Source: Homoserinimonas aerilata (GTDB lineage: Bacteria > Actinomycetota > Actinomycetes > Actinomycetales > Microbacteriaceae). From it: 64,000 bases of DNA. Under the pieces are notes generated by a model that was given only the letters and a program-made list of their open reading frames with translations, did not search any database and was not told where the DNA came from. The stretch is from positions 868,001-932,000 of the forward strand of contig NZ_VFOM01000001.1 in assembly GCF_006716125.1 (NCBI RefSeq), given 5' to 3'. Below are positions 6,239 through 57,467 of this stretch, one piece after another (the stretch's first letter is position 1; every line of letters begins with the position of its first letter). The position numbers were made by a program, and so were the translations under genes.

Positions 6239-6589
6239 ATGTTGGTTCGAGTCGACCCGTCGTCGGAGGTTCCGCTGTTCGATCAGCTGGCCACCGGCAT
6301 CCGGGTGTCAATCATGTCGGGGTCGCTGCCCACGGGGGAGCGCCTGCCGTCGGCGCGTGAGCTGGCCGAGTCGCTCGACATCAACGTGCACACCGTTCTG
6401 CGCGCGTATCAGGAGCTTCGCGACGAGGGCCTCATCGAGCTTCGTCGCGGCCGCGGCGCCATCGTCTCGGCGAAGGCGCGCGACTACAGCGGGCTCACCG
6501 CGGCCATCGCCTCCGTCGTCGCCGAAGCGCGGGCGCACGACGTCTCGCCGGCAGCACTGTCCACACTCATCAGAGAGGCCTACCAATGA
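6239..6589 (+). CDS. GntR family transcriptional regulator (short, YtrA-like)
   Basis: A 116-residue regulator. An N-terminal GntR winged helix is clear: PLFDQLATGIRVSIMSG, LPTGERLPSARELAESLDIN, VHTVLRAYQELRDEGLIELRRGRG. The tail is only about 45 residues, as in the YtrA subfamily, which lacks a large ligand domain and usually controls a neighbouring membrane protein or transporter. It overlaps the DUF1648 gene by 4 nt (ATGA), so the two are one operon, and a palindrome lies in its own promoter. No Shine-Dalgarno sequence is seen, consistent with a leaderless start. Confidence 0.9.
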   Translation: MLVRVDPSSEVPLFDQLATGIRVSIMSGSLPTGERLPSARELAESLDINVHTVLRAYQELRDEGLIELRRGRGAIVSAKARDYSGLTAAIASVVAEARAHDVSPAALSTLIREAYQ

Positions 6590-56604: not shown

Positions 56605-57453
56605 TCAATTATTCACGGGCGGGCTGCCCTCGATGCTGGCAGTGTGCCGCCTGTTCCTCGCCACGGGCCGCCGAAGCGAATCGAGGCGGGCTCGCCACTC
56701 GCGCAGCCGGCCGGGTTCCTCGGCAGGCGACGGGCCGTCGATCCAGCGGGTGACGATGCGCAGGCCGTGCAGAGCATTGGCCGCCCAGATCTCGAGCCCG
56801 TCGAGTTCGGCCGGCGTCGTCTTCTCCCAGGACAGGTCGATGCCGAGGGCCGTCGCCATGGCTGCGACGGATCGCACTGTGACGCTGTCGACCCGTTCGA
56901 GCTCCTGGTCGGGCAGGCAGAGGATCTCCCCGCGCCACCACAGCAGCGCCGTGCTGGCACCCTCGATGACGTGACCGTCGTTGTCGAGCAGCACCACATC
57001 GTCGGCGCCGGATGCTGAGGCCTCGCGACGGATGCTCTCCAAGTTCTCGAGCGACGGGCCTTTGACGCCCGGCTCGATACGGGGCTCGGGGCCGCTGTGG
57101 CTGGCGAGGGTCAGCTGCAGTCCGCGCTCCGGCGCTGGACGGTCTCTGAAGAGCAGGAGCGGCGCATCCTGCCGTGTCACGAGATCGACACGGGGAAATC
57201 GCTCGCCCGTGTCGGGGAGGCGGTCGATGACGGCGTCCCAGAACCCTGAGGGGTCGACCCGCGTGTGTCCGGTCCTCGCGGCAGCGCGCTCGACCGCGTC
57301 GAAGAAACGCATCCTGTGCAGTTCCAGGGCGAGCACGCGCCCCTCGCTGACGAGCCACGAGTCGGCGGCTTCGATCCGCGCGCCCGCCACGTCCTCCAGG
57401 CCGAGCGCGCGCAGCTCGCCGTCGACCCATCCGTGCAGGGTGCTCTCACTCAT
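56605..57453 (-). CDS. pabC: Aminodeoxychorismate lyase (branched-chain-type class IV aminotransferase)
   Basis: A 282-residue class IV PLP enzyme, third step of p-aminobenzoate synthesis. RFFDAVERAAARTG is typical, and the glycine-rich VIEGASTALLWWRGEI binds PLP phosphate; the PLP lysine is probably in GVKGPSLENL. The assignment to PabC rather than a D-amino-acid transaminase rests on the divergent pabB. ATG 57453 is preceded by TACGCT-N6, so the message should be leaderless. dedA lies 4 nt downstream. Confidence 0.85.
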   Translation of the reverse strand: MSESTLHGWVDGELRALGLEDVAGARIEAADSWLVSEGRVLALELHRMRFFDAVERAAARTGHTRVDPSGFWDAVIDRLPDTGERFPRVDLVTRQDAPLLLFRDRPAPERGLQLTLASHSGPEPRIEPGVKGPSLENLESIRREASASGADDVVLLDNDGHVIEGASTALLWWRGEILCLPDQELERVDSVTVRSVAAMATALGIDLSWEKTTPAELDGLEIWAANALHGLRIVTRWIDGPSPAEEPGRLREWRARLDSLRRPVARNRRHTASIEGSPPVNN

Positions 57454-57467
57454 AGACTCAGCGTATG
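57451..57467. promoter_or_regulatory. Interlocked divergent leaderless promoters of pabC and pabB
   Basis: The 11-nt gap between the two start codons holds both -10 boxes. On the plus strand TAGACT (57453-57458) is 6 nt before ATG 57465. On the minus strand TACGCT (57465-57460) is 6 nt before ATG 57453. Each hexamer begins on the first base of the other gene's ATG, so the arrangement is a mirror image. Two polymerases cannot sit there at once. Confidence 0.6.

Follow-up and report, generated by a model that had tools for sequence, protein, structure and literature searches.

The divergent genes pabB and pabC of Homoserinimonas aerilata most probably share one bidirectional, doubly leaderless promoter, a 17-bp block that contains both of their start codons. 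The block lies in the 64,000-nucleotide stretch of DNA that we analyzed, which we call the window, and positions are window positions unless stated otherwise. A sequence-only reading had proposed two interlocked leaderless promoters at this site. This proposal is well supported by the position of the block, by its conservation across genera, including a form in which both spacers are 7 nt, and by other gene pairs with the same layout, while the leaderless character of the two messages stands as a prediction.

Two start codons and two predicted −10 elements interlock in 17 bp

Inspection of the sequence revealed that CATAGACTCAGCGTATG, which occupies positions 57451-57467, reads TANNNT-N6-ATG on either strand (Table 1). 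The pabC start, CAT at 57451-57453 on the minus strand, and the pabB start, ATG at 57465-57467 on the plus strand, have 11 bases between them. On the plus strand, the hexamer TAGACT is followed by 6 nt and then by the pabB ATG; on the minus strand, TACGCT runs from 57465 down to 57460 and is followed by 6 nt and then by the pabC ATG. The first T of each hexamer pairs with the A of the opposite gene's ATG, and each TA is common to both promoters, being T−12/A−11 of one and −1/+1 of the other when +1 is the A of the ATG. This geometry, with its 11-base gap, its two hexamers 6 nt before the ATGs and their interlock, had been described earlier, and we recovered it exactly to the base. A pattern search found CATANNNTNANNNTATG once in the 2.84-Mb genome and its reversed control not at all, and a search of the junction against plasmids gave no match. 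The window contains 12 CAT-N11-ATG strings, and with a probability of 0.00068 for the four further bases, about 0.008 such blocks are expected in it by chance.

Table 1. Features of the pabC/pabB junction, in window coordinates
Feature	Position	Strand	Basis or remark
Probable pabC, aminodeoxychorismate lyase, class IV aminotransferase family, 282 aa	56605..57453	-	PF01063, E 1.1e-22
pabB, aminodeoxychorismate synthase component I, 452 aa	57465..58823	+	PF00425, E 3.1e-86
Interlocked block CATAGACTCAGCGTATG / pattern CATANNNTNANNNTATG	57451..57467	both	Start-to-start distance 12
Predicted −10 element TAGACT of pabB	57453..57458	+	−12 to −7 from ATG; spacing-6 peak in window
Predicted −10 element TACGCT of pabC	57460..57465	-	−12 to −7 from own ATG
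Predicted transcription and translation start, pabB	57465	+	From TANNNT-N6-ATG, no SD; base pair also T−12 of pabC promoter
Predicted transcription and translation start, pabC	57453	-	From TANNNT-N6-ATG, no SD; base pair also T−12 of pabB promoter

The pabB product scored 324.1 bits with TIGR00553, just below the cut-off of 328.4. The NCBIfam pabC models scored the 282-aa protein far below their cut-offs; above cut-off, it belongs only to the class IV aminotransferase family, and pabC is a probable name taken from family and neighborhood. A gene with a DedA/VTT domain comes next after pabC, also on the minus strand.

Both pab starts have the features of leaderless genes, with TANNNT 6-7 nt before the start and no Shine-Dalgarno (SD) sequence; none of the seven SD-like words tried occurs in the 25 nt before the pabB or pabC start. 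We scanned the first halves of 47 ORFs of the window, picked by length and codon-position GC. TANNNT preceded RTG eight times at a spacing of 6 and twice at a spacing of 7, compared with at most three times at every other spacing from 0 to 19, and the two pab starts account for 2 of these 10 cases. Eight more candidate leaderless starts, with TANNNT 6-7 nt before RTG, lie at 6239, 21956, 25126, 30894, 41402, 46475, 48103, and 51657.

The layout is conserved at the pabC/pabB junction

A PabB search of 100 family genomes led to 89 loci from 88 genomes, which we examined; the other 12 genomes were left out because their best PabB matches were TrpE-like, weak, or unlisted. A divergent pabC adjoined pabB at 59 of the 89 loci and was not seen within the stretch examined at the other 30. 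At 41 of the 59 divergent loci, TANNNT lay 5-8 nt before both starts, with start-to-start distances of 12 (n = 23), 13 (n = 8), 18 (n = 3), 19 (n = 3), and 20 bp (n = 1) and with 35, 65, and 89 bp once each, although these loci are related by descent and the start-pairing script favors distances near 12 if several pairs qualify. Distances of 12, 13, 18, 19, or 20 bp with both hexamers were thus found at 38 of the 59 divergent loci, 31 of them at 12 or 13 bp, while no locus with both hexamers had a distance of 14-17 bp. TTG is used as a start codon in one of the 19-bp cases, and the spacers of the 20-bp case are 6 and 8. The remaining divergent loci had a hexamer on one side (n = 11) or on neither side (n = 3) or were without a start pair (n = 4). 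Since the shared-register block is absent from 21 of the 59 divergent loci and a divergent pabC was unseen at 30 of the 89, the block is not essential.

A set of named relatives, several of whose genomes are identical to those of the first set, comprised 80 loci, 33 of them divergent. Here the distances were 12 (n = 7), 18 (n = 5), 19 (n = 2), and 35 bp (n = 2), and the rest were one-sided (n = 11), had no hexamers (n = 5), or had no start pair (n = 1). The 12-bp form occurs in Cryobacterium, Salinibacterium, Frigoribacterium, Galbitalea, Schumannella, Homoserinibacter, and strain PHSC20C1, and the 18-bp form occurs in Leifsonia and Aurantimicrobium. The sequence-only reading had staked its claim on conservation of the two hexamers in close relatives, and in many of them both are present.

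Two kinds of pab loci depart from this layout. In Leucobacter (L384 and L385) and at L112 (genome G051), the starts are 35 bp apart with hexamers on both sides, a distance at which no bases can be shared. At L004 (genome G089), which we counted among the one-sided loci despite its 12-bp block, the pabC-side ATG of the block opens a frame of 5 codons whose stop overlaps an in-frame pabC start; this frame could be either a leaderless upstream ORF or the result of a sequencing error.

We built a quick tree of PabB from 58 rows, many of them partial, in which 26 of 55 inner branches are open. With 12, 13, 18-20, and other as classes, it requires 17 changes, where shuffling gave a mean of 28.3; the interlocked forms by themselves require 9. 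The tree shows clustering with some register change and provides no count of events.

A shared core would couple pabB and pabC

We propose that the housekeeping RNA polymerase would bind the core in either orientation and start at the A of the ATG, yielding two messages without 5' leaders that would be translated from the first codon. Because the two footprints coincide, only one polymerase at a time would occupy the site. The direction would then be picked at each initiation event, a single occupancy would serve both pabB and pabC, and the pabB:pabC ratio would depend on how strong the two hexamers are relative to each other. The layout may persist in a GC-rich genome because sharing lowers the number of constrained bases that two promoters require, apart from the start codons, from six to four.

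The sequence-only reading had gone further, to an exclusion so strong that transcription of pabB and pabC alternates, with the site itself as the regulator, and this part of it we consider very unlikely. The hexamers and starts do interlock, and two polymerases cannot plausibly sit there together. However, this exclusion, which is likely on physical grounds, need not make expression alternate; it would hardly alter mean output at ordinary initiation rates and matters there only if polymerase occupies the promoter for most of the time. In addition, the two enzymes act in sequence, alternation would be of no clear benefit, and in some relatives the starts are farther apart or the stretch examined shows no divergent pair. 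Coupling of pabB and pabC, not alternation, would be the more natural outcome of a shared core.

Fine structure points to two separately tuned −10 elements

We read the fine structure of the block from 35 distinct 12-bp pab blocks, in which the bases at −12, −11, −7, −5, and −1 were fixed by the collecting pattern and are uninformative. At −8, which is free in that pattern, the pabC hexamer has C in all 35 blocks and the pabB hexamer in only 19 of the 35, which suggests a tighter constraint in the pabC direction. No conserved −35 element was found in the 35 blocks, whose flanks are both coding and hence constrained anyway.

The near-palindrome could alternatively be a site for a dimeric regulator that lies over both starts. 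As a partial inverted repeat, the block would agree with such a site, and so would the invariant C at −8 of pabC, a base not set by the pattern. On the other hand, the conservation is asymmetric, and the asymmetry at −8 speaks for two separately tuned −10 elements and against a dimer operator, which we rejected on this count across the 35 pab blocks. The middle bases of the two halves differ, and no operator symmetry was found beyond the promoter elements. The 18-20 bp form retains the −10 elements and not the 17-mer, the same layout occurs with other middle bases at unrelated genes, and the pattern is present once in the genome, all of which make an operator very unlikely.

Other divergent gene pairs carry the same layout

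Pfam confirmed several further divergent pairs, among them upp (uracil phosphoribosyltransferase) and a cytidine-deaminase-family protein, which we take to be tadA. TANNNT-N1-2-ANNNTA stands directly before the upp ATG in 46 of 50 loci (L171-L200 and L230-L249). The deaminase start codon is at the predicted start directly at the core in only 3 of the 46, and an SD-like word lies within 30 nt of the predicted deaminase-side start in 34 of the 46 by raw count. Since the core is kept at upp without the second start codon, it appears to work as a promoter and not merely to be tied to two starts. By script, both starts of the upp/deaminase pair were leaderless in 7 of 30 loci, at distances of 12 (n = 1), 13 (n = 2), 14 (n = 2), 61 (n = 1), and −38 (n = 1); the two loci at distance 14 have GTG or TTG starts and speak against a discrete set of registers.

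A pair formed by an MBL-fold protein and a DUF255 protein was at 12, 13, or 23 bp in 9 of 10 divergent loci and at 49 bp in the other one, and 13 further loci were without the partner. A cation-efflux protein and pyrroline-5-carboxylate reductase are paired in the 23-bp register (L289). The H. aerilata genome itself has a 23-bp block between genes for a DUF5997 protein and a LysR-substrate-domain protein, outside the window at C1:1217687-1217714 (L286), and this pair is found at 23 bp in a congener as well (L287).

The upp/deaminase core, from which the second gene is read with a leader and at which an SD-like word is frequent, raises the alternative that the pab block is a real two-way promoter from which one or both messages have a leader, with the true starts further inside the genes. 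The 5-codon frame at L004, with its overlapping in-frame start, would fit this as well. For the junction in the window we regard such leaders as highly improbable: both ATGs lie exactly 6 nt past their hexamers, their frames are open, no SD sequence precedes them, and more than half of the divergent pab loci show the same arrangement at 12 or 13 bp.

The signal is strongest at the family level

We counted matches to the patterns of the different registers in sets of genomes, tallying the control counts by hand from the pattern listings. The 12-bp pattern was present in 130 of 299 family genomes compared to 22 of 299 for the reversed control, the 18-bp pattern in 44 of 150 (control, 15 of 150), and the 23-bp pattern in 67 of 150 (control, 5 of 150). 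Moving the 23-bp core out to 9 nt before the starts, where it had been at 6, gave a count of 17 of 150, with 9 of 150 for the control. The idea that two starts merely happen to be 11 bp apart with coincidental hexamers can be set aside as having next to no probability, for even though TANNNT is a weak motif, the expectation for the window, the family count for the 12-bp pattern, and the presence of the block at the same place in many genera all stand against it.

At the level of the order, the 12-bp pattern occurred in 41 of 198 genomes and the control in 15 of 198; 14 of these 198 genomes are family members, 5 of which are among the 41. Neither pabB nor pabC was found in any of the 44 loci that were fetched from the order-level matches, a set that leaves out some of the listed sites. 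Across the phylum, 103 of 296 genomes had the 23-bp pattern and 74 of 296 had its control. From these order and phylum counts, the strong signal sits at the family level.

We took as a real pair one flanked on each side by a frame of 80 aa or more, although such frames are also chance events in GC-rich DNA. By this measure, two-sided frames flanked the 12-bp pattern in the family at 11 of the 29 first loci listed and at 16 of 20 hand-picked sites, and in the order at 5 of 28 and at 1 of 16, the latter set including two sites from the family. The corresponding counts were 7 of 10 for the 18-bp pattern and, for the 23-bp pattern, 5 of 10, 15 of 20 picked sites, and 5 of 9 sites picked outside the family. 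Many pattern matches are no real gene pair. The 18-bp RTG pattern has one match in the H. aerilata genome, and it is one-sided.

Base economy alone does not explain the registers

Short fixed spacings with reciprocally shared bases were found at 12, 13, 18-20, and 23 bp. The 13-bp form has one extra middle base, so that both spacers are 7, and keeps the TA sharing. At 18-20 bp the hexamers overlap as TANNNTA, for example in CTAGGCTAG with GTG starts, and at 23 bp the two hexamers have one TA in common. We enumerated the bases needed with spacers of 6/6, 7/7, and 6/7, a range outside which the 6/8 case at 20 bp falls. Besides the start codons, four bases are enough at distances of 12, 18, and 23 (6/6), 13 (7/7), and 19 bp (6/7); at most other distances, six are required or the bases conflict. 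A 7-bp register costs as little yet is unenriched, at 6 of 150 genomes compared to 9 of 150 for the control. This weakens pure base economy as an explanation, which alone therefore does not account for the set of registers, and polymerase geometry or coding limits may exclude the 7-bp register.

We tentatively suggest, as a possibility that goes beyond the pab locus, that doubly leaderless two-way promoters form a genome-wide class in Microbacteriaceae-type genomes, with discrete registers of 12/13, 18-20, and 23 bp in which the same base pairs serve opposite genes as promoter bases, initiator, and start codons. In the 12-bp register, a TA would be −10 element, initiator, and start codon at once, and the choice of direction by one polymerase would fix the ratio of two proteins without a regulator. 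An interlocked promoter of this kind would pack two promoters and their two start codons extremely tightly in nature, with conservation by gene pair across many genera. The distances of 12, 13, 18, 19, 20, and 23 bp form a natural series for studying direction choice by polymerase and the possible coupling of two genes through shared occupancy, and the block also helps in locating the true start codons of these genomes.

Comparison with known systems

Regions of the araC/araBAD type have divergent promoters under a regulator. The pab junction is like them in that two genes are read outward from one short region, but differs in that the 11 bp between the pab starts, judged by their sequence, bear no sign of an operator.

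In Actinobacteria such as mycobacteria and corynebacteria, leaderless promoters have TANNNT about 6 nt before the start, no SD sequence, and no clear −35 element. The pab block resembles these in its hexamer spacing and in having neither an SD sequence nor a clear −35 element; however, those promoters are single, whereas the pab block consists of two back to back that share bases.

In symmetric bidirectional promoters, divergent starts lie a fixed short distance apart and the bases for initiation are co-located on opposite strands, with 18 bp being a common spacing in E. coli. Such promoters were reportedly described in bacteria by Warman et al. in Nature Microbiology in 2021. The 18- and 23-bp forms found here fit this kind of sharing between two −10 elements. 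On the other hand, the pab core includes both start codons, its 12-bp register shares −12/−11 with −1/+1 and not −10 with −10, and specific gene pairs retain the layout across a family. A 12-bp register that incorporates both start codons looks like a new form of symmetric bidirectional promoter.
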